From Planctomycetota bacterium (GTDB lineage Bacteria; Planctomycetota; SZUA-567; H5-PLA8): a stretch of 64,000 bases of DNA. The notes below the pieces were generated by a model. The model searched no databases. It was not told where the DNA came from and saw only the letters and a list, made by a program, of their open reading frames with translations. Below, piece by piece: positions 5,181-62,109 of this stretch. Numbering within the stretch: the first letter of the stretch is position 1; every line of letters starts with the position of its first letter. The translations under genes were made by a program, and so were the position numbers. Where the stretch lies: positions 1-64,000 of the forward strand of contig JACQFI010000021.1 of NCBI GenBank assembly GCA_016200135.1, read 5' to 3'.

Positions 5181-5710
5181 ACCGCGCGCTCCTCGGCTTG
5201 GACCCTGCGCACGACGCACTCCCGCAGGCCTTTGCGCACGCGGCTCAGCAGCATCATCACCGCCGCATACGACTGTCCCGTCTGCTTGGCCACCTCGGCC
5301 AGGGGCAGACCGCTCTCGTAGACGTGCGCAAGGAGCTGGCGCGATTTATCCGGCAGCGTGCGCAGGCACTCCAGCAGCGCGTTCTTGCGCGCCATCCAGA
5401 TGCCCTGCGCGCCCGCCTGTTCGTCGAAGGCGCGTTCGATCAAGTCCAGCATGGAACTGTCCGGAATCACCCGTGCTGTCCGCTTCTCGCGCCAGTGATG
5501 CAGCACAAGATTGCGCGCGGTCCCGCGGCACCAGCGGCCCAGATCGTCGATCGGAACCCCGCTTCGGGACGCCTCGGACAGCCGCATCCAGACTTCCTGC
5601 AGGATGTCCTCAGCCGCATTGGGATCGCGGATCAGTCCGGAGATGAATGCCATCAGCACGTGCCGTTGGGCCAGGAACTGGGCGCCTAGCTGTTCAAGTT
5701 TATCGGGCAT
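5177..5710 (-). CDS. ECF-family RNA polymerase sigma factor
   Basis: The protein has 177 residues. Region 2 shows DPNAAEDILQEVWMRLSEA, the -10 recognition and core-binding helices. Region 4 shows LPDKSRQLLAHVYESGLPLAEVA...SYAAVMMLLSRVRKGLREC, a helix-turn-helix for the -35 element. The length and two-domain arrangement match ECF sigma factors of the Rhodopirellula/Verrucomicrobium type. It is followed by a FecR-domain gene with a 4-bp stop/start overlap, so the two should be translationally coupled and act as a pair. Target promoters cannot be read from this window, although the protease gene immediately downstream is an obvious candidate. Confidence 0.92.
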   Translation of the reverse strand: MPDKLEQLGAQFLAQRHVLMAFISGLIRDPNAAEDILQEVWMRLSEASRSGVPIDDLGRWCRGTARNLVLHHWREKRTARVIPDSSMLDLIERAFDEQAGAQGIWMARKNALLECLRTLPDKSRQLLAHVYESGLPLAEVAKQTGQSYAAVMMLLSRVRKGLRECVVRRVQAEERAV

Positions 5711-31645: not shown

Positions 31646-31664
31646 GGTGAGAGGCCCAGGACCT

Positions 31665-31819
31665 GCAACCACGGATGAACACGGATGAACTCAGATACGT
31701 CGAAACATTCGAGAATATCAAAACCTGTGGCAATGCCCGCGCGGCGGACATCGCATCGAACAGAGTGGCTGCGGAGCTTCATTTCATATCCGTGTGTATC
31801 TGTGTTAATCCGTGGTTGC
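31665..31819. repeat. Inverted-repeat element filling the gap between the two synthase genes
   Basis: Terminal GCAACCACGGAT (31665-31676) and ATCCGTGGTTGC (31808-31819) are perfectly complementary over 12 bases. The inner arms ACGGATGAACACGGATGAAC and TATCCGTGTGTATCTGTGTT continue the symmetry imperfectly. It resembles the dispersed CCACGGATGAACACGGATGA-type repeats seen in many environmental genomes. It covers nearly all of the intergenic space. Confidence 0.75.
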
Positions 31820-31821
31820 CG

Positions 31822-34800: not shown

Positions 34801-37800
34801 CCCTTGAGGGAGAGGGGTCAGGGGTGAGGGGGGCACGCGACCCTGCGCTCCAGCCGCTATCGGAGCGCTTCGCGTGCCTTCATGGACAGGCGCGACGCCT
34901 GTGCCACGAACTTCCGCATACGCCACGATCTGTTGCAGCGTGCGCAGCGCGCCGAGCTCGTCCGACTGGAACTGCTTGGCCTGCGGGAAGCGTTCCTGCA
35001 GCGCGGAGAGAATCTCGACGCGCTTGATGGAGTCGATGCCCAAATCGGCCTCGAGGTCCATCGTGAGGTTCAACGTCTCTTTCGGATAGCCCGTCTTGTC
35101 GGAGACGATCTCGAGCAGCGCGGCTTCCAGCGCACCCGCAGCCGTTCCCCGCTCCCCTTGAGGGAGAGACGTGTCGGCGAGCTCACGTCGAGCCGTGGTC
35201 AGGGGTGAGGGGGGCACGCGACCCTGCGCTCCAACTGCTCCAGGCGCGCTTCGCGTACCTTCCTGGACCGGCGCGACGCCTGTGCCACGGATGGGCAGCG
35301 CGAGCGCCTCCAGCGGCAGCCCCGCCGCCATGCGCTGCTGCTGGCCGAGCAGAAGCTGCAGCGACTGCTGCGCGTCGGTCTGGCTGTCGAGGAACTGCTG
35401 ATGCAGCCGCGCGGTCTGTTCCTGCAGCAGCATCATCGCCTTCATGTTCTCTTGCGTCGCGAGCAACAGGCCCGCGAGGTCGCCGCTCGCTGCCGGCGCG
35501 AACGCGGGCAGCGAGGGGAACACGGTTCCCCTCTCCCCTTGAGGGAGAGACGTGTCGGCGAGCTCACGTCGAGCCGGGGTTAGGGGTGAGGGGCGCGGCC
35601 GCAAAGCAGGCTTGCTCTTCTCGCGCGGCTTGCGGTAATTCGCGCCGCAGATGGGAATGGTGAGCGCCGGGGCGGCCTTCGCGTCGCGCGGCGAGTGCCC
35701 TTCGTCCCACTTGCTCAGGTCGAGCGCATGCCCGCGCGCGGCCAGCACGGCCAGCACGCGCGCGAGGTCGGCCTCGCCCGAGCCCTTGCCGTTCGAACCA
35801 TTCAGGTAGAGCGCGAGATAATCCGCGTCGCCGAGAATCGCCTTCACGAGACCCGTCAGCCGCGCGCCCGCGCCCACTTCCACAAAGGTCCGCATGCCCG
35901 CCGCGTGCAGCGCCTGGATGCTCGCGAGGAACTCCACCGGATTCGTGAGGTGCGTCGCGAGCAGCTCGCGCGCTTGGGCGGCGTCGGCCGGGTACGGCTG
36001 GCCCGTGCGGTTCGCATAGACGGGAATCTTCGGAGCTTCAAAGTTCGTCGCATTCAGCGCCGCGCGGAACGGCCCTTCGGCGGCGCTCATGAGCGGGCTA
36101 TGGAACGCCGCCGAGACCGGCAGGCGCGTCGCGCGGAGGTTGCGCCGCCCGAACGCCGCCGCGGCCTTCTCGATCTCCGCCGTCGCGCCGCTCAACACCC
36201 ACTGCTGCGGTGCGTTCTTGTTCGCCAGCACCGCGTCGATCTTTTCTTCGGCCAGCGCCTGCTGCACGGCTTCGAGCGGCGCCTGCACCGCCAGCATCGC
36301 GCCGTGGTCGCCCGCGCCCTCGCCGGCCTCGGCCATCAAGCGGCCGCGCAGGCACGCCAGCGCGTGCAGCGCCGCCTCATCAATCGCTCCCGCCGCGTGC
36401 AGCGCCATGATCTCGCCGAAACTGTGGCCCGCCAACGCCTCCGCCGCGACGCCGAAGCGCCGCAGGATCCGGTACGCGCCCAGGCTCGTCGCGCCCAGTG
36501 CCGGCTGCGCGTAACGCGTGTCGCGCAGGCGCAGCTCGTGCGCCGCGCGCGCCGCCTCGTCGAACGCCGGCAGCGGATAGATCGCGTCGCTCAGCCGGAA
36601 CGGATGCGCGCCCTGCGCGCCGTTCGCTTTCTCAAACGCGGTGTCCGCCGCGCCGAGCACGTCCACGAACTCCGGGAACTGGCACGCGAGGTCGCGCAGC
36701 ATGTTCGCGTACTGCGCCCCCTGGCCCGGGAAGAGCAACGCCAGCTTGCCCGCCGCCGCGCCCGCGCCCACGTACACCCCGTCCGGCGTGGACCAGAACC
36801 CTTGCGCCACGGATGCAGGTGCGGACACCGCCGAGGCCGTTCCTCCCTGCGCTTCGGAAGCCGTCGCCGCTACTCCAGGCGCCTGGGCCATCCCCCCCTT
36901 ATGTAAGGAGGGGTAAGGGGAGGTCTTCCCCGCGCCTTCGACCAGCTTCGCGGCCTGCTCCAGCGCCTTCGCGAGCCCGTTCTTCTCCCGCTGCACTACG
37001 ATCAGCGCGCGCCACGCATCATTTATCTTGAAGGCCGCGCGCGCACGCGCCGCCTCGTCGCGCAGGTCGTTCCACGCCAGATCCGGCTTCACCGCCGCGA
37101 GCTGCGCCTGCAGCGCCGCGGGGGACTCCGCCGAGTACCCCAGCAATTGCGTCTCGCCATCCCACGCCACGCCGGGTCGCGCGGGGGCGTACTCTTCGAG
37201 CACGCAGTGGAAGTTCGTCCCGCCGAACCCGAAGGCGCTCACGCCCGCGCGCCGCGGATGGTTCCCGCGCGGCGCCCACGGCCGCTTCTCGACGTTGAGA
37301 TAGAACGGAGAATGTCCGGGGATCGCGGCTTCAAGCGGAGTCCCGGCCTTGATCGACGGCGGCAGGACCCGGTGATGCAGCGCCAGCGCCGCCTTGATCA
37401 GCCCCGCCGCGCCCGCCGCCGCCTTCGTGTGCCCGATCTGCGACTTCACCGAGCCCACCGCACACCAGGACTGCGGCACCTGCCCCGAGGGGCTGGTGGG
37501 GCGGGCCTCCGTGCCCGCCATCCTTAAATCTGTTCCCTCGAAGACCTTCTCCAGCGCCCCCAGCTCCGTCGCGTCGCCGACTTTCGTCCCGGTGCCGTGG
37601 CCCTCGATCAGTTCCACCGTCGCCGGCGCGACCCCCGCGACGCGGTAGGCCTCCTGCAGCGCGCGCGCCTGCCCGTCGCCCTTCGGCGCGTAGATCGCGT
37701 TGCCGCGCCCGTCGCTGCTCGAACCGACGCCCTTGATCACCGCGTAGATCTTGTTCCCGTCGCGCTCCGCGTCGGCCAGGCGCTTGATCACCACGATGCC

Positions 37801-38637
37801 GACGCCTTCGCCCAGGATCGTGCCGTCGCCCTGCGCGTCGAACGGCCGCGCGTCGCCCGTGGGGCTCAGCGCCGGCGTCTTGCTGAAGCACATGAACATG
37901 AAGATGTCGTTGAAGGTGTCCACGCCGCCGGTGATCACCATGTCGCTGCGCCCGGCGGAAAGTTCCAGCGCAGCCAGATGCAGCGCGCTCAGGCTGCTCG
38001 CGCAGGCCGCGTCCACCACGCAGTTGGTGCCGCCGAGGTCGAAGCGGTTCGCGATGCGCCCGGCCACCACGTTGCCCAGCAGGCCCGGAAAACTGTTCTC
38101 CTGCCACGGCACGTAGCCGTCGGCGATGCGCTGTACCACGTCCTCGGCCTGGTCCTGCGGCACGCCGGCCTCTTGCAACGCGCGCCGCCAGAGCGGGTGG
38201 CCCAATCGCGCGCCCAGCGGGATCACCAGTTCCAGAGTACCCGTCACGCCCAGGATCACGCTCGCGCGCGTCCGGTCCCAACTCTTGTCGTCGGGATCGT
38301 AGCCCGCGTCGCGCAACGCCTGCGCCGTGGCGTACAGGCCCAGCAACTGCGACGTGTCCGTGGCTTCGAGGTTGTTCGGAGAGATGCCGAATTCGAGCGG
38401 GTTGAAGGCGACCGGTTCGAGGAACCCGCCGCGGCGGCTGTAGGTCAGGTCGGGCGCTTTGGGATCGGCATTGAAATAGTCTTCCGCGCGCCAGTGCGTC
38501 GGCGGCACTTCGGTGATGCAGTCCCTGCCTTTGACGATGTTGGCCCAGTACGCGCCGGCTCGGTCGGCCTTGGGGAACAGCGCCCCCAGGCCGACAATGG
38601 CGAGTGGGACAAAAGACGGTCGCGCTTCGGGGTTCAA
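31822..38637 (-). CDS. PfaA-like polyunsaturated fatty acid synthase subunit: KS-AT-ACP-ACP-KR-DH
   Basis: The protein has 2271 residues from a TTG start at 38637 with AGGAG six bases upstream. KS: DAACASS with Cys near 210, EGHGTGT, SVKSQIGH. AT: LAGHSFGEIM with Ser near 739. Two nearly identical acyl carrier proteins carry LGIDSIKRVEIL with phosphopantetheine serines near 1200 and 1318. KR: ISGGARGVTAEV near 1672 and YAAANE near 1855. The C-terminal polyketide-type dehydratase has LTSHVIDGRSVLP near 2004 and LVLDCAFQ. The architecture matches PfaA/Pfa2. Two ACPs is few for this family. Linkers and one KS loop contain in-frame palindromic repeats. It heads the putative transcript to oleC and needs a phosphopantetheinyl transferase from elsewhere. 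Confidence 0.92.
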   Translation of the reverse strand: MNPEARPSFVPLAIVGLGALFPKADRAGAYWANIVKGRDCITEVPPTHWRAEDYFNADPKAPDLTYSRRGGFLEPVAFNPLEFGISPNNLEATDTSQLLGLYATAQALRDAGYDPDDKSWDRTRASVILGVTGTLELVIPLGARLGHPLWRRALQEAGVPQDQAEDVVQRIADGYVPWQENSFPGLLGNVVAGRIANRFDLGGTNCVVDAACASSLSALHLAALELSAGRSDMVITGGVDTFNDIFMFMCFSKTPALSPTGDARPFDAQGDGTILGEGVGIVVIKRLADAERDGNKIYAVIKGVGSSSDGRGNAIYAPKGDGQARALQEAYRVAGVAPATVELIEGHGTGTKVGDATELGALEKVFEGTDLRMAGTEARPTSPSGQVPQSWCAVGSVKSQIGHTKAAAGAAGLIKAALALHHRVLPPSIKAGTPLEAAIPGHSPFYLNVEKRPWAPRGNHPRRAGVSAFGFGGTNFHCVLEEYAPARPGVAWDGETQLLGYSAESPAALQAQLAAVKPDLAWNDLRDEAARARAAFKINDAWRALIVVQREKNGLAKALEQAAKLVEGAGKTSPYPSLHKGGMAQAPGVAATASEAQGGTASAVSAPASVAQGFWSTPDGVYVGAGAAAGKLALLFPGQGAQYANMLRDLACQFPEFVDVLGAADTAFEKANGAQGAHPFRLSDAIYPLPAFDEAARAAHELRLRDTRYAQPALGATSLGAYRILRRFGVAAEALAGHSFGEIMALHAAGAIDEAALHALACLRGRLMAEAGEGAGDHGAMLAVQAPLEAVQQALAEEKIDAVLANKNAPQQWVLSGATAEIEKAAAAFGRRNLRATRLPVSAAFHSPLMSAAEGPFRAALNATNFEAPKIPVYANRTGQPYPADAAQARELLATHLTNPVEFLASIQALHAAGMRTFVEVGAGARLTGLVKAILGDADYLALYLNGSNGKGSGEADLARVLAVLAARGHALDLSKWDEGHSPRDAKAAPALTIPICGANYRKPREKSKPALRPRPSPLTPARRELADTSLPQGERGTVFPSLPAFAPAASGDLAGLLLATQENMKAMMLLQEQTARLHQQFLDSQTDAQQSLQLLLGQQQRMAAGLPLEALALPIRGTGVAPVQEGTRSAPGAVGAQGRVPPSPLTTARRELADTSLPQGERGTAAGALEAALLEIVSDKTGYPKETLNLTMDLEADLGIDSIKRVEILSALQERFPQAKQFQSDELGALRTLQQIVAYAEVRGTGVAPVHEGTRSAPIAAGAQGRVPPSPLTPLPQGERGTTAGALEAALLEIVADKTGYPKETLNLTMDLEADLGIDSIKRVEILSALQERFPQAKQFQSDELGALRTLQQIIAYASQHGVAAALPPASTVAGTARGELGRAEARPTSPDSRPIATEVAAVEAKAPEARSAPAALMVARTPAELLETHVTLGPQEFETKEIVRAVERLVLSKVPLAASPSRDAAPLPKGAKVWVTDDDPELGAALLERLRELDYAAKLVSARSLEAGAIPEDLAGLVILSPRQSASGAGDAGDACLKLAFRLLRMAGPALRRTGTRTGAALLTVARLDGGFGMHGLNGGALPESGGLSGLAKTARHEWPEVRVKALDLAPEFTDAAAAAEGIANELLSSGPVEIGLSPTGRWTVELAPAPFGSHDPEQPIRAGDVVVISGGARGVTAEVSLALAKAFKPVLVLLGRSPEPAEEPDWLRGAETEAAVKQALATRANGGATPKLIEAEFRKIAANREIRYNLRRIEVAGGSAIYKSVDVRDAKAVRAVLAALREELGGIKGLIHAAGVLADRLIEDKTDEQFDAVYGTKVEGLRNLLAALQPNELKLLVLFSSTTGRYGRKGQADYAAANEVLNKTAQAEAKARPGCRVVAINWGPWEGGMVTPGLRKVFEKEGVGLIGLKAGAEYLVREICSNGERPVEVAVLARSGARPEAAALPAPTAPPAAKAPELSASSSRLATISNRGSAVMPAVPEPSMHVAFERELDLDRHPFLTSHVIDGRSVLPMSMAAEWLAQGALHQHPGMLFHGFNGLRIMKGIILSGSGGAGYRIRVLAGDASMDGDFLTTPVEIWGSAAGGAERLHARGEAVLAPKLPESQRLYGDPPTRPYEHSIEAVYSEFLFHGPALRGIQKITGCSEVGIAAEVRGAPPPGEWMKEPLRGTWVTDPLVLDCAFQMMILWSLERHDAGSLPNYVKRYRQYRRVFPKDGTRIVIHISKDRSHMAGAEIEFLDHDGRLVALMEGHECTIDSSLRQAFKKNLLGA
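34469..34518. repeat. GC-rich palindromic repeat in coding DNA (EARPTSP family, copy 1, expanded)
   Basis: GTGGGGCGGGCCTCGG...CGTGCCCGCCAC forms a hairpin with an expanded GC-rich centre. It encodes part of the linker between ACP2 and the KR region. Related copies lie at 37490-37520 and 39989-40014. Confidence 0.75.
34793..34832. repeat. Palindromic repeat in coding DNA (LPQGERG family, copy 1)
   Basis: CCCCTCTCCC (34793-34802) and GGGAGAGGGG (34808-34817) form a 10-bp stem with a 5-base loop, followed by TCAGGGGTGAGGGGG. It encodes SPLTPLPQGERG between ACP1 and ACP2. Two further copies lie at 35145 and 35527. Confidence 0.85.
34865..34908. repeat. Short repeat in coding DNA (GTGVAPVHEGT family, copy 1)
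   Basis: The segment contains GGACAGGCGCGACGCCTGTGC with an AGGCG/CGCCT stem. It encodes RGTGVAPVHEGTRSAP just after ACP1. The sister copy at 35246-35290 differs by a few bases and encodes GTGVAPVQEGTRSAP. Confidence 0.8.
35145..35214. repeat. Palindromic repeat in coding DNA (LPQGERG family, copy 2, longer form)
   Basis: The C-run/G-run stem is as in copy 1, but an insertion containing GTGTCGGCGAGCTCACGTCG lengthens it. It encodes SPLTTARRELADTSLPQGERG immediately before ACP1. Confidence 0.85.
35246..35290. repeat. Short repeat in coding DNA (GTGVAPVQEGT family, copy 2)
   Basis: The segment has the same GGCGCGACGCCTGTGCCACG core as the copy at 34865. It encodes GTGVAPVQEGTRSAP in the linker before the ACP region. 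Confidence 0.8.
35527..35594. repeat. Palindromic repeat in coding DNA (LPQGERG family, copy 3, longer form)
   Basis: It is almost identical to copy 2, including the GTGTCGGCGAGCTCACGTCG insertion. It encodes SPLTPARRELADTSLPQGERG in the linker after the AT domain. Confidence 0.85.
36892..36923. repeat. Short palindromic repeat inside the PfaA-like linker (C/G-run family, copy 2)
   Basis: CCCCCCCTTATGTAAGGAGGGG and a following G-run encode SPYPSLHKGGMAQ between the KS and AT domains. It is the sister of the copy at 26861-26893 in the other synthase gene. Confidence 0.8.
37490..37520. repeat. Palindromic repeat inserted within the ketosynthase coding region (EARPTSP family, copy 2)
   Basis: GGTGGGGCGGGCCTCCGTGCCCGCC encodes AGTEARPTSPSG within the first KS, between the EGHGTGT and GSVKSQIGH motifs. 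The reading frame is intact. Copy 3 of the same element is intergenic at 39989-40014. Confidence 0.85.
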
Positions 38638-52854: not shown

Positions 52855-53469
52855 ATGCCTGCGACCACGTCCGCGCATCAGATCATCCATAAGGCGCGCA
52901 TGTCCCCAACCCCCGACCTGCCGGACGAGCTCTGGGAAGTCATCGAGCAGTACCGCGGCGAACTGGTCAACCAGGCCCTGGCGATTCTGGGCAGCCTCGA
53001 AGACGCCGAAGACGTGGCCCAGGACACCTTCTGCGAGGCCTTCCGCAGCAGCGAACGCATCGCTGAAGCGCGCTCGCTGGGCGCGTGGCTGCGCACGATC
53101 AACCGCACCAACGCGCTCGACCGCCTGCGCAACCGGCGCCGCGGGCGCAAGGAGAGCAAGCGGCTGGGCGAGGGCGCCAAGCAGTCCACGACCGGCGGCT
53201 TCAGTTTGATCGAACTGCGCGAGAGCCTGGCCAAGGCGATCGAGTCGCTCCCCGACGACCTGCGCGCCGTGGTGATCCTGCGCTACTGGGAACACCTTTC
53301 GTACGAAGAGATCGCCGCGCGGCTCAAACTGCCCACCACGACCGTCTGGCGGCGCTTCTACGACGCCTCGATGCTGCTCTTCGGCAAGATGAAGGACAAC
53401 CTGGAAGGACCCGCCGGCCCGGGAACCGGTCCGGCCGAACCACCTGCAGAAGGGAACCCACAGCCATGA
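52855..53469 (+). CDS. ECF sigma factor, module 1 of a triplicated sigma/anti-sigma-toroid set
   Basis: The protein has 204 residues. An internal ATG at 52900 (MSPTPDLPDELW) is a possible alternative start. Region 2 has GSLEDAEDVAQDTFCEAFR and LRTINRTNALDRLRNRRRGR. Region 4 has SLPDDLRAVVILRYWEHLSY, followed by the helix-turn-helix IAARLKLPTTTVWRRF. The TTGGFSLIELRES segment between them is shared with the other two copies. The stop overlaps the start of the anti-sigma-toroid gene (ATGATGA), indicating coupled translation. Its target genes are unknown; autoregulation is likely by analogy with other ECF/anti-sigma pairs. Confidence 0.93.
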   Translation: MPATTSAHQIIHKARMSPTPDLPDELWEVIEQYRGELVNQALAILGSLEDAEDVAQDTFCEAFRSSERIAEARSLGAWLRTINRTNALDRLRNRRRGRKESKRLGEGAKQSTTGGFSLIELRESLAKAIESLPDDLRAVVILRYWEHLSYEEIAARLKLPTTTVWRRFYDASMLLFGKMKDNLEGPAGPGTGPAEPPAEGNPQP

Positions 53470-55442
53470 TGGCCATACTGGATTGCAACGAGACGGCGGC
53501 CCGTTTCCCGCCGTACGCCGAGAACACGCTGGCCGCGGGCGAGAAGGACGCGGTGAACGCGCATCTGCGCACCTGCCCGCACTGCCAGGTCGCGCTCAAG
53601 CGTTTCAACCGCCTGCAGGACTTCGCGCGCACGGCGCTCGGGCCCGGCGTCATCCCGCCCGAGTTCGGCGCGGACACCGGCCGGCGGCTCAAACAGATCA
53701 CGTCGTCAAGGAGCCCGGTAATGGTGGAAGAAGAAGAACTGGAACCCGTGCCGGTCTCGGGGCTGGACCGCTTCCTGACCAACGCGGGCGGGTTGCCGTG
53801 GTGGGGCATCTCGGTCGCGATGCACGTGCTCCTGATCGCGCTGCTCGGGCTGATCACCATGGCCATCGGGCAGGTGAACGATAACGATACGGTTGTGGTC
53901 GTCGCCAACTTGGAGCGCGCGGTCCAGGTGCGTCCCGAAGAACCGAAGTCCAAAGACCAGATCCGCGACGCGCTGGCCTCGAACCACGATACGCCTGCGA
54001 CCGACCCGGACTCCACGGTTGAATCCAACATCGTCGTTCCTCCGGACATCCTGGCTAAGGCGGAACTGGGCGACCACTTCGAGACCGTCAATCCCGACCG
54101 GCCCGATACGCACAGCGCCTTCGGCAACCCGGACGCGCATATGTTCCACAGCGTCACCGGCAACGACGAGCCCGAAGGAGGCGGCGGCACCGAGGGCGTG
54201 AGCCTCTCCGACGAGATGATTGGCATCGGCGGCAGCGGCAGCCCCGGCACCGGCGGCGGCTGGGGTGGCGGCACCGGAACCGGCACGGGCGTTGGCACGG
54301 GCTCGGGCCACGGCAGCTTCGGGGCGCGCACCGGCGGCGGGCGCAAACTGATGGTCCTGCGCCACGGCGGCAGCAAGGCCACCGAAGGCGCGGTCGATAA
54401 GGCGCTGGAATGGCTCGCGCGGCACCAGGAAGTGGACGGCCACTGGGATTGCTGGAAGTACGAAGGCCGCCAGGAAGGCCGCACGCAGGGCATCAACGGC
54501 GACGCCGCGGTAACCGGCTTCGCGGTGCTGGCCTTCCTCGGCGCGGGCCACACGGAGAAAGTCGGCAAGTACCACGACAACGTGAAGCGCGGCGTCTACT
54601 GGCTCATCAAGACCATGGAAGAGAACGAGAAGACCTGCGGCGAAGGCCGCTGGTGCAAGAACCACGGCAGCAACTACACGCAGGGCGTCGCGTCCCTGGC
54701 GCTGGCCGAGGCCGCCGGCATGAGCCGCAACGCCGAATGGAAGGCCGCCGCGCAGAAGGCGATCAACGGCGTCGTCTCCGGCCAGATCAAGAAGGGCAAC
54801 AGCGACTACGAAGGCTGGGACTACGCGCCCGGCGGCACCACGAACGACACCTCCGTCACCGGCTGGAACGTGATGGCGCTCAAGTCCGCCAAGGTTGCGG
54901 GCATCAAGGTCGATCCCGCCTCCCTCATGGGCGCGATGAACTGGATCAACTCCGGCCAGGACCTGAAGGGCGCCCCCAAAGACGGTGACGCCGACTACTG
55001 GGAAGGCGGGATGATGACGTACCGCGGCCAGGTGGGCGCGCCGCCGAATCCTAAAAACATGGCCATGACCGCCGCGGCGGCGCTTACGCGGCTCTTCATC
55101 GGCGGCGAGAAACCCACCTCGCCGGGCGTGGCCGGACCGTGCAACCTGATGAAGAAAGAAGCGAACTTGCCCACCGAAGACAAGGCTCGCTTCAACCTCT
55201 ACTACTGGTATTACGGCACGCTGGTCATGTTCCAGAAGGGCGGTGATTACTGGAAGCTCTGGAACGAGTCCATGCGCAAGTCCATCCCCAACGCGCAGCG
55301 CAAAGACGGCGATTTCGACGGCTCGTGGGACCCGTACTTCACCGAAGGCACCGGCTACATCTACGGCGGGCGCGTGATGTCCACGTCGCTCGGCGCGCTG
55401 GTCCTGGAGGTCTACTACCGCTACCTGCCGCTTTACCGCTAA
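53466..55442 (+). CDS. Zinc anti-sigma domain fused through one TM helix to an alpha/alpha-toroid (prenyltransferase/squalene-oxidase-repeat-like) domain, module 1
   Basis: The product has 658 residues from the ATG at 53466. The N-terminus is a zinc anti-sigma domain with Cys in AILDCNE and HLRTCPHC (H-x3-C-x2-C). PWWGISVAMHVLLIALLGLI is a single TM helix (~99-118). An acidic linker (NPDRPDTHSAFGNPDAHMFH) and a glycine-rich tract (GSGSPGTGGGWGGGTGTG) follow. The C-terminal ~360 residues are helical repeats with QW-like motifs (QEVDGHWD, DGSWDP), as in squalene-cyclase/prenyltransferase toroids, ending in LEVYYRYLPLYR. The helix would put the toroid outside the cytoplasm as a sensor and the zinc domain on the sigma factor. 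A catalytic role is not evident. The ORF reading from 53085 lies inside the sigma gene. Confidence 0.85.
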   Translation: MMAILDCNETAARFPPYAENTLAAGEKDAVNAHLRTCPHCQVALKRFNRLQDFARTALGPGVIPPEFGADTGRRLKQITSSRSPVMVEEEELEPVPVSGLDRFLTNAGGLPWWGISVAMHVLLIALLGLITMAIGQVNDNDTVVVVANLERAVQVRPEEPKSKDQIRDALASNHDTPATDPDSTVESNIVVPPDILAKAELGDHFETVNPDRPDTHSAFGNPDAHMFHSVTGNDEPEGGGGTEGVSLSDEMIGIGGSGSPGTGGGWGGGTGTGTGVGTGSGHGSFGARTGGGRKLMVLRHGGSKATEGAVDKALEWLARHQEVDGHWDCWKYEGRQEGRTQGINGDAAVTGFAVLAFLGAGHTEKVGKYHDNVKRGVYWLIKTMEENEKTCGEGRWCKNHGSNYTQGVASLALAEAAGMSRNAEWKAAAQKAINGVVSGQIKKGNSDYEGWDYAPGGTTNDTSVTGWNVMALKSAKVAGIKVDPASLMGAMNWINSGQDLKGAPKDGDADYWEGGMMTYRGQVGAPPNPKNMAMTAAAALTRLFIGGEKPTSPGVAGPCNLMKKEANLPTEDKARFNLYYWYYGTLVMFQKGGDYWKLWNESMRKSIPNAQRKDGDFDGSWDPYFTEGTGYIYGGRVMSTSLGALVLEVYYRYLPLYR

Positions 55443-55474
55443 TCCGCTTCACGCCGCTTTATGGGTGCATAGAC

Positions 55475-55505
55475 AAGCGGGCCGCAAGGCCCGCTTCTCT
55501 GTTTT
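55475..55505 (+). terminator. Rho-independent terminator after module 1
   Basis: AAGCGGGCC (55475-55483) and GGCCCGCTT (55488-55496) form a 9-bp stem with a GCAA loop. CTCTGTTTT follows. It separates module 1 from module 2, so the modules have separate promoters or partial read-through. Confidence 0.88.
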
Positions 55506-55627
55506 AAATTCACCCCTTATGGTCCCCTTTAAAGAGGGCGAGAACACCGGCGCGCCTGTGCAGCGGCGTTCGCACGTGTGATTTTCAGATTCCAAAAACT
55601 TTCGCGAAGAAACTCCGGGCGCGCGGG

Positions 55628-55641
55628 GACAGTATAGTAGG
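55628..55641 (+). promoter_or_regulatory. Shared promoter-like motif upstream of sigma factor 2
   Basis: GACAGTATAGTAGG lies 30 bases before the start codon at 55658. The third sigma gene has GACACTATAACAGG at the corresponding place (58392-58405). Ten or more of the 14 bases agree and TATAGT/TATAAC resembles a -10. No clear -35 was identified. Confidence 0.45.
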
Positions 55642-55657
55642 AAGCGCGAGGAATCCG

Positions 55658-56284
55658 ATGTCCACGACCGCAGCCGTTCAAGTCCTGATGAGGAACGCTC
55701 CGATGGATCCACGGGGCGAAGTCCCCGAAAAGTATTGGGAGTTGATCGAGCGCTACCGCGGCGAGCTCGTCAACCAGGCGCTGGCGATCTGCGGCAAACT
55801 CGAAGACGCCGAAGACGTCGTTCAGGAGACGCTCTGCGAGGCGTTCCGCGATCCCGCGAAACTCGCGCAGGCCCGTTCGCTCGGCGCGTTTCTGCGCAGC
55901 ATCAACCGCGCCAACGCGCTGAACCGCACCCGCGACCGCAAGCGCGACGCGGCGAAGTCCGGCCGCAAGCAGCTCGAAGCGCCCGCACGCTTGGTTACTA
56001 CCGGCGGCTTCAGCCTGCTCGAACTCCGCGACTCGGTGGCGAAGGCGATCGAGACGCTCCCGCCGCATCTGCGCACGGTCGTGGTGCTGCGCTACTGGCA
56101 GCATCTCTCGTACGAAGAGATGGCCGCGCGGCTGAACGTGCCGTCGGGCACCGTCGGCCGCCTCCTTTATGAAGCCACGCTGGCGCTCTACGACAAACTC
56201 AAGATTCACCTCGAGACTCCGGCCGCGCCGCCCGCCCAACCGAATCCGTCCGCCCCGGACGCATCCAAGGAGCCCTGTTCATGA
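55658..56284 (+). CDS. ECF sigma factor, module 2
   Basis: The protein has 208 residues, preceded by GAGGA. It is closely similar to the module 1 sigma: KYWELIERYRGELVNQALAI, GKLEDAEDVVQETLCEAFRD, TTGGFSLLELRDSVAKAIE and YWQHLSYEEMAARLNVPSGT. The C-terminal tail is Pro/Ala rich. The stop overlaps the start of the next gene by four bases. The sequence divergence from its paralogues in the C-terminal half of region 4 could give separate promoter choice. Paralogous duplication is clear from order, length and sequence. Confidence 0.93.
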   Translation: MSTTAAVQVLMRNAPMDPRGEVPEKYWELIERYRGELVNQALAICGKLEDAEDVVQETLCEAFRDPAKLAQARSLGAFLRSINRANALNRTRDRKRDAAKSGRKQLEAPARLVTTGGFSLLELRDSVAKAIETLPPHLRTVVVLRYWQHLSYEEMAARLNVPSGTVGRLLYEATLALYDKLKIHLETPAAPPAQPNPSAPDASKEPCS

Positions 56285-58269
56285 TGCTGGTCAGCGACTG
56301 CCCCAAGGCCGCCGAGCGCCTCAGCGCCTATGTGGACGGAAGCCTTCCGTCCGAAGAACGCGCCGCGATCGAGCTGCACCTGAACACCTGCGCGTCCTGC
56401 CGCGACGGCGTGAAGCGCTATCGCGCGGTCCAGAGCCTGCTCGACGGCGCGCTGGGCCCCAAGGCCCTGCGCCCGGACTTCGCCACCGAGACCGGCAAGC
56501 GCATGCACGCGGTCACTTCGGGGATGCTACCCGCGATCCTGCCGCAGGACGGCTTCGACGCCGGTCCCGAGCCACACGCGGCCACGCTGGGCGAACGCGT
56601 CCTCGCGCGCCTGGGCGGCGTGCCGTGGTGGGGCATCTCGATCAGCCTGCATCTGCTCGTGCTCGTCTTCTTCAGCCTGATCACGATGGCCATCGGCACG
56701 AAACCCGGCGACAGCGTTGTCGTGCTGACCAACCTCGAACGCGCGCCCAAGTTCGAACTGAACCTGGACGTGAAGAAGGAGCAGGAGGCGCTCCGCGATA
56801 TTCTCGAATCCAAGCACGAGACCGCGGCGACCGAACTCGGCTCCGATGTGAAGTCCAAGGTCGTGGTGCCGCCGGAGGTCCTCGCCGAGGCGCAACTGAG
56901 CGACCACTTCGAGACGATCAACCCCGACCGGCCGGACACGCAGAGCGCGTTCGGCAATCCCGACGCCGAGATGTTCCATAGCGCGACGGGCAACGACGGC
57001 CCGGCGGGCGGCGGCGGACCCGGCAGCGGTGAGGGCGCGATGCTCTCCGATGAGATGATCGGCCTCGGTGGTGCGGGCGCGGCCGGCACCGGCGGCGGCT
57101 GGGGCGGCGGCAACGGGAACGGCGTCGGCATCGGGACCGGTGCGGGCCACGGCAGCTTCGGCCAGCGCACCGGCGGCGGGCGCAAGCTCCTCGTGATGAA
57201 GCACGGCGGCAGCGCGGTGACGGAGTCGGCCGTGGACAAGGCCCTGGCGTGGCTCGCGCGCAACCAGGAAGTGGACGGCCACTGGGACAGCAAAAAGCAC
57301 GGCGGCGCGAACGGCTTGTATGAAGCCAAGCCCGGCGACGGCGCGAAACAGGTGGACGTGGCCATGACCGGCATGGCCCTGCTGGCCTTCCTCGGCGCGG
57401 GCCACACGGAGAAGGTCGGCAAGTACCGCGACAACGTCAAGCGCGGCATCTACTGGCTGATCCAGCAGCAGGCCGACAGCGGCTTCCTTTCCACACCCCA
57501 GTCCAATTATGCGCACGCCATCGCGGGCATGGCGCTCTCCGAGGCCGCCGGCATGGGCAAGATCGCCGAGACCGTCGTGGCGGCGCAGAAGGCCATCGAC
57601 GCCACCACCGGCAAGGGCACCAAGGTCGAGAACCTGAGCGAGCGCGGCGGCTGGGCGTACGGCATTCCGGAGCACGACACCATCAGCGGCGATTTGAGCA
57701 ACACCGGCTGGACGATCATGTTCCTCAAATCGGCCCGGACTGCGGGCCTGAAGGTCGATACGCAAGCCATCGCGGGCGCGATTCGCTTCCTGGATGCGTG
57801 CGAGAATAAGGACGGGAAGAACGCCAACGATCCGTACTCCCGCCACCGCTACAGCTACGCGGCCGACCCCGCCAATAAGACCACCTGGGAGACGAGCCGC
57901 GTGCAAATCAGCCTCGTCGGCATCCTCAACCGCCAGTTCCTCGGCACGCCGCGCGAAGAACTCCAGAAGGCCGTCGAATGGGCCGTCGAGAAAGGCAAGG
58001 TCCCGCAGAACGGCAAATGGAACTTTCAGGGCCTCTATCACATCTATTACGGCACGCTGGTGACGTTCCAGCAGGGCGGCGATCTCTGGAAAGACTGGAA
58101 CAAGGCCCTCAAAGAGGTGCTCGTGCCGAGCCAGGTCGTGGGCGGTGCGAATGATGGCTCGTGGGAGCCCAACGGAACCTACTGCGAAAAGTGGGGCCGC
58201 GTGGGCCAGACCGCGCTCTCCGCGATGTGCCTGGAGGTCTACTACCGCTACCTGCCGCTCTATCGCTAG
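56281..58269 (+). CDS. Zinc anti-sigma / TM / alpha-alpha-toroid fusion, module 2
   Basis: The protein has 662 residues. The zinc domain has VSDCPKAAER and HLNTCASC. The TM helix PWWGISISLHLLVLVFFSLI is nearly identical in position to the other copies. The invariant segment HFETINPDRPDTQSAFGNPD precedes a Gly-rich tract (GGWGGGNGNGVGIGTGAGHG). The toroid has QEVDGHWD, AVTESAVDKALAWLARN and GHTEKVGKYRDNVKRGIYWL. It ends in LEVYYRYLPLYR. It carries several differences in the toroid concavity and extra loops (such as DANKDG-like CENKDGKNANDP). The conserved frame with variable toroid suits a family of sensors recognising different ligands. No squalene-cyclase or prenyltransferase active-site motif was seen. 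Confidence 0.85.
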   Translation: MMLVSDCPKAAERLSAYVDGSLPSEERAAIELHLNTCASCRDGVKRYRAVQSLLDGALGPKALRPDFATETGKRMHAVTSGMLPAILPQDGFDAGPEPHAATLGERVLARLGGVPWWGISISLHLLVLVFFSLITMAIGTKPGDSVVVLTNLERAPKFELNLDVKKEQEALRDILESKHETAATELGSDVKSKVVVPPEVLAEAQLSDHFETINPDRPDTQSAFGNPDAEMFHSATGNDGPAGGGGPGSGEGAMLSDEMIGLGGAGAAGTGGGWGGGNGNGVGIGTGAGHGSFGQRTGGGRKLLVMKHGGSAVTESAVDKALAWLARNQEVDGHWDSKKHGGANGLYEAKPGDGAKQVDVAMTGMALLAFLGAGHTEKVGKYRDNVKRGIYWLIQQQADSGFLSTPQSNYAHAIAGMALSEAAGMGKIAETVVAAQKAIDATTGKGTKVENLSERGGWAYGIPEHDTISGDLSNTGWTIMFLKSARTAGLKVDTQAIAGAIRFLDACENKDGKNANDPYSRHRYSYAADPANKTTWETSRVQISLVGILNRQFLGTPREELQKAVEWAVEKGKVPQNGKWNFQGLYHIYYGTLVTFQQGGDLWKDWNKALKEVLVPSQVVGGANDGSWEPNGTYCEKWGRVGQTALSAMCLEVYYRYLPLYR

Positions 58270-58294
58270 ACTTCCTTATCTTTTCGTCATTTCG

Positions 58295-58324
58295 AATGCC
58301 CGGGAGCGCTGGCTCCAGGGCATT
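58295..58324 (+). terminator. Stem-loop after module 2
   Basis: AATGCCCGGGAGC (58295-58307) pairs at 12 of 13 positions with 58312-58324 around a GCTG loop. TTGTGC follows, a weak T-run, so the terminator is probable but not certain. Confidence 0.6.
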
Positions 58325-58391
58325 TGTGCTATTGGCCCACTCGTGCAATCTTTTTTCCCAGATTCCGCCAGCTTTTTGCCCCTCTCAAACG

Positions 58392-58405
58392 GACACTATA
58401 ACAGG
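58392..58405 (+). promoter_or_regulatory. Shared promoter-like motif upstream of sigma factor 3
   Basis: GACACTATAACAGG lies 27 bases before the sigma 3 start and overlaps its AGGAGG ribosome site. It matches the motif before sigma 2. Transcription from it would give an almost leaderless message. Confidence 0.45.
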
Positions 58406-58418
58406 AGGCGCGTGCGCC

Positions 58419-59027
58419 ATGGCAGGTTCCACCACCGCGGCACTGGTTCTCATGGGCGATTCAAGCCAAAAGACCGGCCAGGATCTTCCCGAGGCCTACT
58501 GGGAACTGGTCGCCCGCTACCGCGAGAAACTGCACCTCCAGGCCATGCATATCCTCGGCCGCCAGGAAGACGCCGAAGACGTGGTCCAGGAGACCTTCGT
58601 CGAAGTTCTTCGCGACACCGCCAAACTCAATCAGGTCCGTTCCATCGGCGCCTGGCTGCATACAGTCAACCGGGCCCACGCGCTCAACCGGCTGCAGGCG
58701 CGGCGCCGCGAGGCCCAGAACATCGACACGGGCCGCAAGGCCGTGACGACCGGCGGCTTCAGCGTCCTTGAACTCAGGGACTCCATCTCGAAAGCAGTGG
58801 AAGAACTCCCGGACAAGCAGCGCGACGTGATCCGCCTGCGTTTCTACGAGCACCTGCCGTTCGACCAGATCGCCCAGCGCCTGGCCATGCCGGAAGGCAC
58901 GGCCAAGTGGCTGGCCTGCGAGGCCATGGTCAAGCTGCACGCGAGTCTACGGGCGTACCTGCCGGACATGGAAGGGCACGGCCCCGCGGCCGGCGCCGAA
59001 TCCGCACCAGAAGGGAAGCAAGCATGA
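58419..59027 (+). CDS. ECF sigma factor, module 3
   Basis: The ATG at 58419 (MAGSTTAALVLMGDS) follows AGGAGG. A longer open frame from 58161 overlaps the previous gene and is not the real start. The product has 202 residues. Regions match the other two sigma factors: LGRQEDAEDVVQETFVEVLR, LHTVNRAHALNRLQARRREA, TTGGFSVLELRDSISKAVEE and FYEHLPFDQIAQRLAMPEGT. It is the most diverged copy of the three. Its stop overlaps the start of the anti-sigma-toroid gene as ATGA. Confidence 0.93.
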   Translation: MAGSTTAALVLMGDSSQKTGQDLPEAYWELVARYREKLHLQAMHILGRQEDAEDVVQETFVEVLRDTAKLNQVRSIGAWLHTVNRAHALNRLQARRREAQNIDTGRKAVTTGGFSVLELRDSISKAVEELPDKQRDVIRLRFYEHLPFDQIAQRLAMPEGTAKWLACEAMVKLHASLRAYLPDMEGHGPAAGAESAPEGKQA

Positions 59028-60949
59028 CCCTGATCGAGACCTGCCGCGCCGCGGCTGAACGCCTGCCCGAGTACGCCGAGAAACGGCTCGGCACCGACGA
59101 GGCGCTTGCGCTGGAAGACCACCTGCGCGGTTGCCCCGACTGCCGCCTGCGCCTGGCGCTCTACCGCGATGTCCAAAACCTCTTTACGGGCGCGTTCGGC
59201 TCCGCTGAAAACGGAGCGGCATCACCGCGCAAGAGTTCCGCGCGCTTCCACCAGATCACCACCGGCCCGCAACTGCGGGTTTCCGCAGAGTCCGAACCGG
59301 CGCTCGAAGAAAAGGTCCCGGCCGCGGAAGGACTCCTGCTGCGCTTAGGCGGAACGCCGTGGTGGGGTATCTCGGTCGCGCTGCACCTGCTGCTGATTAC
59401 GCTGCTCGGGCTGGTCACGATGGCCATCGGAAACCCTAGAGGCAACGACGACGTGGTGACCGTCGCCAATCTCGAGCGCGTGCCGCAATTGAAGGCTGCC
59501 GAGGAACCGAAGCGCCCGGAGCAGTTGCGCGAGGTCCTGGAGAACGCGAAGGATGTCCCCGCCACCGCTCCGGATTCAAAGAACACATCGAATGTGATCG
59601 TGCCGCCGGAGATCCTGGCACAGGCCGAACTGGGCGACCACTTCGAGACCGTCAACCCCGACCGGCCCGACACGCAGAGCGCCTTCGGCAATCCCGACGC
59701 GCGCATGTTCCATAGCGAATCGGGCAACGACGAATCCGAAGGCGGCGGCGGGGCGGGGGGCATTAGCCTCTCGGACGACTTGATCGGCGTGGGCGGCTCG
59801 AACAGCCCAGGCTTCGGCGGCGGCTGGGGCGGCGGAAACGGCACGGGCACTGGAATCGGGAACGGCTCGGGGCATGGCAGCTTTGGTGCCCGCAACGGCG
59901 GAGGCCGCAAACTGATGGTTATGCGGCATGGCGGCGGCAAGGCCACGGAATCGGCGGTGGACAAGGCGCTGGAATGGCTGGCGAAACATCAGGAAGCCGA
60001 CGGGCACTGGGACACTAAGAAGTACGAAGCCACCCACTCCGAAGATACGCCTATAACCGGGCTGGCGCTTCTGGCGTTCCTGGGCGCGGGACACACCGAC
60101 AAGGTAGGTAAGTACAAAGACAATGTCGTGCGTGCCACCAAGTGGCTGGTTTCCCAGCAGCAACCCAATGGCATGATTCAAGGCGGCCACAACCCCGGCT
60201 ATGGGCATTCCATTGCGGGCTTGGCGCTGGCGGAGGCTGCCGGCATGGGCCGCGACCCGCAGGTCAAGGAAGCCGCGCAGAAGGCCGTCAAGTGGTCCAT
60301 CGAGGTAATGCAGCAGGGCGAAGGCTCCGACAAACTCGGCTGGCGCTACGGCCCCAAGCACTTGGGCGACATCTCGGTTTCGGGTTGGTACACGATGCAG
60401 CTCAAGAGCGCCAAGGTTGCGGGACTGCAAGTGGAAATGGCCGGCTTCGAGGGCGCTTCCAGGTTCCTCGACACCGTCATGGTCGAAGCGCCCAAGCCCG
60501 GCGATCCCTATTCGGGGCACAAGTATGGCTACATCAAAGACGGCAATGGTCCCAATGGCATCCGCACCAAGAGTACGCATTGCAACACGGCTATCGGCTG
60601 CCTCATGCGGCAGTTCCTGGGCATGAAGCGCGACGAACTGCAGGGCGGCGTGGAGTATTTCATCAAGGAAGGCGGAGTGCCGCGCGCCGAGCACCCCGAA
60701 TTCTACTATTGGTACTACGCGACGCTGTGCTGCTTTCAGCAAGGCGGAGACATCTGGAAGAAGTGGAACGAGGGCCTCAAGGCCGCGCTGGTGCCCACGC
60801 AGCGCAAAGACGGCGACCACGACGGCTCCTGGGATCCCAAGGGCTTCTCCGTGGAAGGCGCGGAGCAATGGGGTGGACGCGTCTTCACAACGGCCATGGG
60901 CGCGCTGTGTCTTGAAGTGTACTACCGCTATTTGCCACTGTACCGCTGA
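59024..60949 (+). CDS. Zinc anti-sigma / TM / alpha-alpha-toroid fusion, module 3
   Basis: The protein has 641 residues from the ATG at 59024. The zinc domain has IETCRAAAERLPEY and HLRGCPDCRLRL. The TM helix PWWGISVALHLLLITLLGLV again precedes an acidic linker with the segment HFETVNPDRPDTQSAFGNPD and a Gly-rich tract. The toroid has QEADGHWD, GHTDKVGKYKDNVVRATKWL and DGSWDPKG, ending in LEVYYRYLPLYR. This copy is shorter than the others by about 20 residues in the toroid. The upstream sigma gene and this gene are coupled by a 4-bp overlap. A sialate O-acetylesterase-like gene starts 44 bases downstream and may be co-expressed. Confidence 0.85.
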   Translation: MTLIETCRAAAERLPEYAEKRLGTDEALALEDHLRGCPDCRLRLALYRDVQNLFTGAFGSAENGAASPRKSSARFHQITTGPQLRVSAESEPALEEKVPAAEGLLLRLGGTPWWGISVALHLLLITLLGLVTMAIGNPRGNDDVVTVANLERVPQLKAAEEPKRPEQLREVLENAKDVPATAPDSKNTSNVIVPPEILAQAELGDHFETVNPDRPDTQSAFGNPDARMFHSESGNDESEGGGGAGGISLSDDLIGVGGSNSPGFGGGWGGGNGTGTGIGNGSGHGSFGARNGGGRKLMVMRHGGGKATESAVDKALEWLAKHQEADGHWDTKKYEATHSEDTPITGLALLAFLGAGHTDKVGKYKDNVVRATKWLVSQQQPNGMIQGGHNPGYGHSIAGLALAEAAGMGRDPQVKEAAQKAVKWSIEVMQQGEGSDKLGWRYGPKHLGDISVSGWYTMQLKSAKVAGLQVEMAGFEGASRFLDTVMVEAPKPGDPYSGHKYGYIKDGNGPNGIRTKSTHCNTAIGCLMRQFLGMKRDELQGGVEYFIKEGGVPRAEHPEFYYWYYATLCCFQQGGDIWKKWNEGLKAALVPTQRKDGDHDGSWDPKGFSVEGAEQWGGRVFTTAMGALCLEVYYRYLPLYR

Positions 60950-60993
60950 TAGCCACGTCACGTTTGAAACCGCTTCGGGAAAGGACGAACGCC

Positions 60994-62109
60994 ATGCGAG
61001 CATGGTTTATATTGGGCGTATTACTTACCGGTTCGTTCCTGCCTGTGATTGGGCAGGCGGCTGAATCTCCATCGGATATATGGGTCGTCTCGGGACAGTC
61101 CAACGCCTGTGGCCGCGCCGAGCTTCCGGGCTACGAAGAACATCCGCTCGTGCAGATGTTCGACGGGCGCAAGTGGATTGCGGCCAAAGAACCGCTGCCG
61201 CTGGGCGGCACCGTCGGCCCATGGATGGCGGCGGCCACGGAGACGGCCAAGGGCGGCGTGGGTGTAAAGATATGCGGTTGGGCGAGCGGCGGACAACCCA
61301 TCAGCCTTTGGGAAGAAGCCGGCGGCGGCTGGAAATCTCTCAGCGGGCAGATTCGCGCCGCAGGGAAGAATGCCGGCGTTTTCCTCTGGTACCAAGGCGA
61401 ATCCGACGCGGTGAACGGCTACGGGCCGGACAAGTACCTGGAAGTCCTCCAGGATCTCGCTTCGCGCGTGCGCAAGGAGGCCGGCAATCCGCAGATGCTC
61501 ACCGTCATTGTCCAACTGGCTACCTTCGGCAGTGGCAGCAGTCAGCGCAAGACGATGGACATCCGCGAGGCGCAGCGTCAGTTCGTGCTCAAAGACCCGC
61601 ACGCCATTCTCGTAACGGCCATGGGCCGCGAATGCGACGGCACGCATTTGAAGAAAGACGGTTACTTCGAATTGGGCCGAGAGATTTCCCGCGCGCTGCT
61701 CAAGACCCGCTACGGCAAGAAAGATGTGGACTGGCCCGGCCCGGTGCTCGATGCGGCCGTCTACGGCGCCGACGGCAAATCGGTGCTTGCGCATTTTGCC
61801 GAGGCAAAAAAACTCACGGGGCTCGACGCGGCCGATTTCGCGGTGCTGGACAGCCAGGGCGTGGTGAATTGCACCAAGGTTCTTGGCGAAAACACGCGCA
61901 TAGCCCTGACGTTGGAACGGGCGGTGACGCCTCCGGCTAAATTGGTCTATGGATACGGTAACGGACCTAAAGCCACGCTGGTCGACGAGGCCGGCAACCG
62001 CGCCCCGGCGGTGCATCTTGAAATCGCCAAGGGTCCTCCGCCTCCCGACATGGAAACAAAAGCGCCCAACGGCGCGGGAGCACCCGCAAGCAAGGTGGCA
62101 GGCAAATAG
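60994..62109 (+). CDS. Secreted sialate O-acetylesterase-like (SASA/DUF303) SGNH protein
   Basis: The ATG at 60994 (MRAWFILGVLLTGSFLPVIG) opens a signal peptide; AAAGGA precedes it, while the frame from 60964 starts without one. The product has 371 residues. The SASA-domain motifs are WVVSGQSNACG with the nucleophile Ser, FLWYQGESDAVN and GTHLKKDGY with the catalytic Asp/His. Residues ~250-345 form a second beta-rich domain. Enzymes of this kind remove acetyl groups from sialic acid or polysaccharides. The C-terminal ~25 residues are Pro/Gly rich. It is 44 bases from module 3 and is possibly part of its transcript. Confidence 0.9.
   Translation: MRAWFILGVLLTGSFLPVIGQAAESPSDIWVVSGQSNACGRAELPGYEEHPLVQMFDGRKWIAAKEPLPLGGTVGPWMAAATETAKGGVGVKICGWASGGQPISLWEEAGGGWKSLSGQIRAAGKNAGVFLWYQGESDAVNGYGPDKYLEVLQDLASRVRKEAGNPQMLTVIVQLATFGSGSSQRKTMDIREAQRQFVLKDPHAILVTAMGRECDGTHLKKDGYFELGREISRALLKTRYGKKDVDWPGPVLDAAVYGADGKSVLAHFAEAKKLTGLDAADFAVLDSQGVVNCTKVLGENTRIALTLERAVTPPAKLVYGYGNGPKATLVDEAGNRAPAVHLEIAKGPPPPDMETKAPNGAGAPASKVAGK

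Follow-up and report, generated by a model that had tools for sequence, protein, structure and literature searches.

Anti-sigma factors with a TonB-type helix and a toroid domain in a Planctomycetota genome: putative clients of an ExbB/ExbD motor

The window analysed here, a stretch of 64 000 nucleotides from a Planctomycetota bacterium (contig JACQFI010000021.1), carries three consecutive gene pairs, in each of which the gene for an extracytoplasmic function (ECF) sigma factor is followed by that for a membrane protein made up of an anti-sigma domain, a transmembrane helix, a linker and an α/α toroid. The helix carries a motif, PWWxxSxxxH, which has the spacing of the motor-binding motif of TonB and TolA, a correspondence that was overlooked in the first-pass annotation. 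We infer both motor binding and regulation, and consider it fairly probable that these proteins are anti-sigma factors coupled to a proton-motive-force motor and fitted with exchangeable toroid sensors; the narrower proposal that they are clients of an ExbB/ExbD motor, and that engagement or force, sorted by the toroids, would set many sigma factors via one motor, seems to us evenly balanced.

Ton-dependent gene control as it is known needs an outer-membrane receptor between the motor and the anti-sigma factor. If our interpretation is true, a motor helix inside the anti-sigma factor would let a single protein link the proton-motive force, contact with the envelope and transcription. Signalling by TonB-type helices, both towards ExbB and from it, could then be studied in a clean system, and the large expansions of toroids and sigma factors in the Planctomycetota would acquire a function. 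Since one motor has been lost naturally and the helix and linker of eight proteins have switched to match, the hypothesis can be tested in further genomes from sequence alone.

Results and Discussion

A TonB-type helix in the anti-sigma proteins

The window's genome (a 6.1 Mb assembly of 140 contigs, 91% complete) encodes eight sigma/anti-sigma–toroid units, namely the three of the window and those at loci L031, L032, L033, L035 and L036. Together with 29 pairs from other Planctomycetota loci they make up the 37 pairs that were compared, and the arrangement is not due to chance. In an alignment of 53 homologues, P111, W112, S116 and H120 (unit 1 numbering) are invariant; among the copies from the window's own genome T131 is invariant as well, with Leu, Phe, Val or Ala at +11 and Thr at +15. 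With its spacing of S-x3-H-x6-hydrophobic-x3-T the helix matches the SHLS motif (S-x3-H-x6-L-x3-S) of the TonB/TolA transmembrane helix, which contacts ExbB or TolQ (PMC12215075), and a PW pair stands 5–6 residues ahead of the Ser, as it does in TonB. All 30 toroid proteins that have an anti-sigma domain contain PW-x3-SxxxH, whereas in a control set from related genomes, made up of 23 further zf-HC2 anti-sigma proteins that possess a transmembrane helix, S-x3-H was found near the helix in only three and at its N-terminal half in one. Outside the membrane, the D-box of TonB, which binds ExbD, lies 25–31 residues past the motif His (PMC12215075, PMC10907165); these proteins have a hydrophobic strand 22–30 residues past it (DTVVVVANLERAV in unit 1), which by analogy we describe as D-box-like. 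Taken alone, the helix motif would be compatible with one chance motif inherited by all members; the points made below from paralogues, from a shared partner and from motor loss are independent of it.

The main alternative, though a rather unlikely one, is ordinary regulated proteolysis of the kind seen with RseA and RsiW, in which the toroid would bind a ligand or damaged envelope material, a periplasmic protease would cut the linker and a membrane protease would then free the sigma factor, the helix being an ancestral relic out of touch with any motor. The class I anti-sigma domain, akin to those of RsrA and RsiW, fits such a scheme, a single transmembrane helix and a long disordered linker suit cleavage, and the sigma-linked copies are without adjoining motor genes. 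However, a relic would not be expected to keep its Ser and His invariant in 53 proteins.

Paralogues without the anti-sigma domain lie in motor operons

The same helix, linker and toroid, without the anti-sigma domain, are encoded in operons for ExbB and paired ExbD proteins. Within the window's genome, the operon at L034 consists of genes for a TPR protein, a toroid protein, ExbB, ExbD and ExbD, and that at L037 of genes for a toroid protein, ExbD and ExbD; all but one of the five ExbD genes in this genome stand beside toroid genes. Motor-linked toroid paralogues occur in other assemblies (L061, L064 and L066), and across the phylum, as well as in two Sumerlaeota assemblies, toroid genes follow those for ExbB and often ExbD, the last helix ahead of the toroid being commonly of the S-x3-H type. 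A sigma factor gene lies upstream of 29 of the 30 toroid proteins with an anti-sigma domain (the remaining one is at a contig edge) and of none of the 59 without it, 23 of which have an adjacent ExbB gene. On a tree, the anti-sigma label switches at least six times, and the domain is therefore readily gained or lost.

Such a history would also suit proteins whose main role, as in the L034 paralogue, is that of a motor-driven transducer performing mechanical or transport work at the envelope, with the anti-sigma domain reporting or adjusting their number or occupancy as a form of feedback. The helix, linker and toroid held in common with the motor-operon paralogues, together with the repeated switches of the label, speak for this explanation, but in several genomes the sigma-linked copies are far more numerous than the motor-linked ones and their toroids are diverse, as expected of sensors, so that we judge it improbable.

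Some relatives of these genes depart from the common plan. The reverse strand of L039 (2650–5900) has a 1082-residue open frame encoding an SxxxH transmembrane helix, an NPDRPDT linker, a toroid and then a vWA-like domain, and the protein seems to combine two transducer end domains in one chain. At L037 (7395–9582) a further sigma factor gene overlaps that for a toroid protein with another N-terminus, which has neither the zinc motif nor SxxxH; this pair adjoins the toroid–ExbD–ExbD operon of the same locus. At L040 (5348–6882) a motor-type toroid gene is split into two overlapping frames, either as a pseudogene or through an assembly error.

Helix and linker are alike within a genome and follow the motor type

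Over the 37 pairs, the helix and linker have a mean identity of 0.72 within genomes and 0.43 between them, the corresponding values being 0.46 and 0.44 for the sigma factor, 0.30 and 0.28 for the anti-sigma domain, and 0.50 and 0.49 for the toroid. Recent gene conversion can be ruled out as the source of the alike linkers, since codon identity at identical residues is not raised in the linker but is about equal to that in the toroid, with a slight gap (0.77 against 0.73) in one genome. Helices and linkers that are alike within a genome without raised codon identity therefore point to a shared partner, and the simplest reading is that all the helix-linkers of a cell face one partner, while each toroid and each sigma factor faces its own.

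The nature of that partner is suggested by a congener (G001), which has two motor operons, L207, orthologous to L034 of the window's genome, and L221, which comprises genes for TPR2, ExbB, ExbD, ExbD, FHA and kinase proteins with no transducer. Motors of the L221 type, here called ancestral, are also present in G004 (L225) and G003 (L238), and the corresponding ExbB in G006 and G008. In the window's genome, the syntenic locus (L234, at 104000–123000 of the window's contig) retains the kinase, FHA and TPR2 genes; ExbB and both ExbD genes are gone, leaving 164 bp between FHA and TPR2 (bases 9238–9401 of the locus). Because FHA and TPR2 lie on one contig, 164 bp apart, the sequence indicates that the ExbB–ExbD–ExbD cassette is truly lost from this genome, and is not missing through an assembly gap.

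The anti-sigma proteins differ in the same sense. All eight from the window's genome match the helix-linker type of the motor-adjacent proteins L034 and L061 at 0.59–0.69 and the ancestral type at 0.32–0.36, and the three readable units of the congener match the ancestral type at 0.51–0.57 and the motor-adjacent type at 0.33–0.34. Among the remaining anti-sigma proteins only L063, on a short contig, has the L034 type. In the orthologous pair formed by L214 and L031, the sigma factors stand at 0.86 and the toroids at 0.78, and the linkers, which are of unequal length, at 0.30. The NPDRPDT linker, claimed earlier as an invariant mark of the module, is present in the window units but belongs to the helix-linker type of this genome, the linkers of the congener units being different and shorter. 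Helix-linker type thus tracks motor type in the sequences compared. A relic helix, as supposed under regulated proteolysis, should not stay alike within each genome, and its copies should not all change together to the transducer type of the remaining motor; a shared protease could give the likeness within a genome, but not the match of the linker to a motor-adjacent transducer.

Several points weigh against coupling to a motor. The match between motor loss and linker switch is one clear event, and G007 (80% complete) has ancestral-type linkers with no ancestral-type ExbB detected, which is either a result of incompleteness or a counter-example. None of the 30 sigma-linked copies is adjoined by ExbB or ExbD genes, and motor coupling would therefore be in trans. 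Outside the window's genome, SHLS is only loosely matched at its Leu and last Ser, the D-box assignment is drawn from position and pattern, and the ExbB Trp that touches the Ser and His of TonB in Escherichia coli is not evident here by eye.

The toroid domain

The toroid is related in sequence to the C-terminal half of squalene-hopene cyclase, with which, as with other α/α toroid proteins, it shares its fold. A Foldseek search with the unit 1 toroid gave only the generic (α/α)6 fold, with TM-scores of 0.57–0.64 by target, the matches being GH76 mannanases, cyclases and sugar epimerases. The relation to the cyclase and the fold matches to the GH76 α-mannanases could be taken to mean that the toroid is a terpene-cyclase-like or glycosidase-like enzyme, the expression of which is controlled by the sigma pair. 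Against this, the DxDD motif of the cyclases is absent from seven of the eight copies of the window's genome, and the lone DPDD (L036) is not conserved; the toroid alignment has no invariant Asp, Cys or His; and, unlike the cyclase, these toroids are membrane-tethered and fused to an anti-sigma domain, a covalent fusion that would be odd for a catabolic enzyme. With no conserved cyclase motif and a structural match to the generic fold only, we ruled against a catalytic toroid, which is very improbable.

The toroids also appear to be exchangeable. At the congener locus L210, a sigma factor at 0.87 and an anti-sigma domain at 0.64 to those of L036 accompany a toroid at 0.74 to that of unit 3. 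Because L210 joins a sigma/anti-sigma pair of the L036 type to a toroid of the unit 3 type, the sequences indicate that toroids move between pairs, as expected of exchangeable sensors. The earlier suggestion that parallel copies could sense different ligands fits the divergence of the toroids and this swap.

The structure prediction that had been proposed as a check was run on unit 1 with AlphaFold (53 rows, mean pLDDT 75), and gave an ordered anti-sigma domain (residues 1–80), a transmembrane helix (112–134), an essentially disordered region (136–301) and an ordered toroid (302–650) with a pLDDT of about 95. This domain layout agrees with the sigma factor, membrane anti-sigma factor and periplasmic toroid envisaged in the first-pass annotation; in view of the TonB-type helix, of the paralogues beside ExbB and ExbD and of the match between helix-linker and motor type, the role of a passive sensor is less likely than that of the working end of a motor-coupled transducer.

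The anti-sigma domain

The family profile of the anti-sigma domain matches RsrA (5frf) and RsiW (5wuq) in a profile search, and Pfam places zf-HC2 at residues 7–41 in all three window proteins (E values of 1e-7 to 7e-11, above the cut-off). Distances between sigma factors correlate with those between anti-sigma domains (r = 0.57; maximum of 1000 within-genome permutations, 0.36), and because this co-variation exceeds all 1000 permutations the pairs are probably cognate. With an adjacent sigma factor gene, a zf-HC2 domain and co-variation with the sigma factor, the proteins have the features of class I ECF anti-sigma factors, and inhibition of the sigma factor is predicted. The class I (ZAS/zf-HC2) proteins RsrA, RsiW and ChrR are alike in the N-terminal zinc-type domain and in the overlap with an ECF sigma factor gene, and RsiW also has a single transmembrane helix; the present proteins differ from them in the TonB-type SxxxH helix common to motor-operon paralogues, in the toroid outside and in the loss of zinc ligands from two of the eight copies (L032 and L036). 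The H-x3-C-x2-C motif reported for the three window units is thus not general, and because L032 and L036 lack the ligands these are not essential to this type of protein.

In another family of the class, L179 (763–2192 and 2293–3105) encodes a sigma factor and a small zf-HC2 anti-sigma protein with an SxxxH helix and no toroid, with a toroid-like gene lying divergently beside it. This small protein is possibly an independent motor-type anti-sigma factor.

Relation to known systems and a proposed mechanism

The proteins resemble TonB and TolA, which work with ExbB–ExbD and TolQ–TolR, in the SHLS-type helix, the hydrophobic strand after the membrane, the disordered linker and the distal globular domain, as well as in having motor-linked paralogues here. 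They differ in having no TonB/TolA C-terminal domain, in the cytoplasmic anti-sigma domain before the helix and in a motor encoded elsewhere; no TonB family is among the Pfam and NCBIfam matches of the window proteins, which have the toroid instead. They are therefore not TonB or TolA, though the helix fits SHLS and the working may be similar. The vWA force transducers of the PVC group, which are encoded with TPR, tolQ-like and paired tolR-like genes (PMC12204202), are alike in neighbourhood, SHLS helix, motor box, disordered linker and foreign distal domain, but here the toroid replaces vWA, and a vWA-like tail apparently follows the toroid only in L039; the main text of that paper does not mention 'toroid' or 'sigma'. 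Cell-surface signalling of the FecIR type (PMC9249621) also has an ECF sigma factor and a membrane anti-sigma factor, and needs the Ton motor. There, however, the motor acts on an outer-membrane receptor, whereas here the motor helix lies in the anti-sigma factor itself; the units gave no Pfam match to the FecR domain, and no receptor was recognised among the gene calls adjoining them. In open-access full text (subscription papers and preprints not being covered) we found no report of a toroid anti-sigma factor or of a fusion of an anti-sigma domain to a TonB-type helix, and the combination is provisionally novel.

We propose that an anti-sigma domain has been grafted onto a TonB/TolA-like transducer coupled to ExbB/ExbD, in which the toroid would replace the C-terminal domain of TonB or TolA. 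The N-terminal domain, judged by its family and its co-variation, would keep the sigma factor in the cytoplasm; as in TonB, the SxxxH helix would sit on the outer face of an ExbB pentamer, and the strand that follows it outside the membrane would dock on the ExbD dimer. By virtue of the long disordered linker the toroid could reach a target in the periplasm or the outer membrane. Once the toroid is engaged, or the motor puts tension on the linker, the helix might shift or the linker become exposed to proteases, and the sigma factor would be freed directly or through proteolysis. One motor would be common to all such proteins in the cell, specificity coming from each toroid and each sigma factor, and the common helix-linker of a cell would arise because that motor is shared.

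Features of the window

The coordinates are listed in Table 1. The gene order, 4-bp overlap (ATGA), H-x3-C-x2-C, PWWGIS...LH and NPDRPDT motifs and toroid end LEVYYRYLPLYR noted previously for the two-gene units were all found in the window, but their description as a triplicated module does not hold. A recent tandem triplication is ruled out by toroid identities of 45–52% among the three units and by a tree of the helix-to-end region, which places unit 1 among those of other genera, and units 2 and 3 with motor-linked paralogues; by these comparisons the window units belong to a set of eight old paralogous pairs. The linker is about 165 residues long in the window units, and the Pfam family SQHop_cyclase_C covers part of the toroid, in two of the three above the curated cut-off and in the third just below it.

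Table 1. Positions of the sigma factor and anti-sigma–toroid genes, and of parts of their products, in the window.
Feature	Position	Strand	Details
ECF sigma factor 1	52855..53469	+	204 aa; Pfam Sigma70_r2 6e-13, r4_2 2.5e-13
Unit 1 anti-sigma/TonB-type helix/linker/toroid protein	53466..55442	+	658 aa; ATGA overlap; zf-HC2 and SQHop_cyclase_C; AlphaFold
Unit 1 cytoplasmic anti-sigma domain	53466..53705	+	Residues 1–80; zinc motif HLRTCPHC; zf-HC2 1.5e-7; mostly high pLDDT
Unit 1 transmembrane helix, SHLS-like	53796..53867	+	Residues 111–134; S116, H120, L127, T131; homologue alignment, AlphaFold
Unit 1 D-box-like hydrophobic segment DTVVVVANLERAV	53886..53924	+	Residues 141–153; analogy of position and pattern only
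Unit 1 disordered linker	53871..54368	+	Residues 136–301; includes DHFETVNPDRPDT and a Gly-rich stretch; pLDDT mostly < 50
Unit 1 α/α toroid	54369..55439	+	Residues 302–658; pLDDT about 95; Foldseek (α/α)6
ECF sigma factor 2	55658..56284	+	208 aa; Pfam Sigma70_r2 4e-10, r4_2 1.5e-13
Unit 2 anti-sigma/TonB-type helix/linker/toroid protein	56281..58269	+	662 aa; ATGA overlap; zf-HC2 7e-11, SQHop_cyclase_C 2e-9
Unit 2 transmembrane helix PWWGISISLHLLVLVFFSLITMAIG	56623..56694	+	S-x3-H, T at +15; alignment
Unit 2 toroid	57208..58266	+	Alignment to unit 1
ECF sigma factor 3	58419..59027	+	202 aa; Pfam Sigma70_r2 4e-12, r4_2 2e-11
Unit 3 anti-sigma/TonB-type helix/linker/toroid protein	59024..60949	+	641 aa; ATGA overlap; zf-HC2 9e-8
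Unit 3 transmembrane helix PWWGISVALHLLLITLLGLVTMAIG	59357..59428	+	S-x3-H, T at +15; alignment
Unit 3 toroid	59933..60946	+	Alignment; the toroid of congener unit L210 is closest to this one (74%)

A shared auto-regulatory promoter was dropped, no common bipartite motif having been found upstream of the eight sigma operons, as was a role in anti-phage defence, for which PADLOC gave no match. Directly 3' of unit 3 lies a gene for a SASA-family acetylesterase (60991–62109), which is a candidate regulon member; a similar-looking protein is encoded downstream of the L036 unit (L036, 6997–8052). Elsewhere in the window, on the reverse strand, a separate ECF sigma factor gene, unrelated to the toroid units, overlaps that of a possible FecR-like partner (4137–5710), and two very large genes (24323–38637) encode proteins that appear to resemble ketosynthase-type polyketide or polyunsaturated fatty acid synthases.

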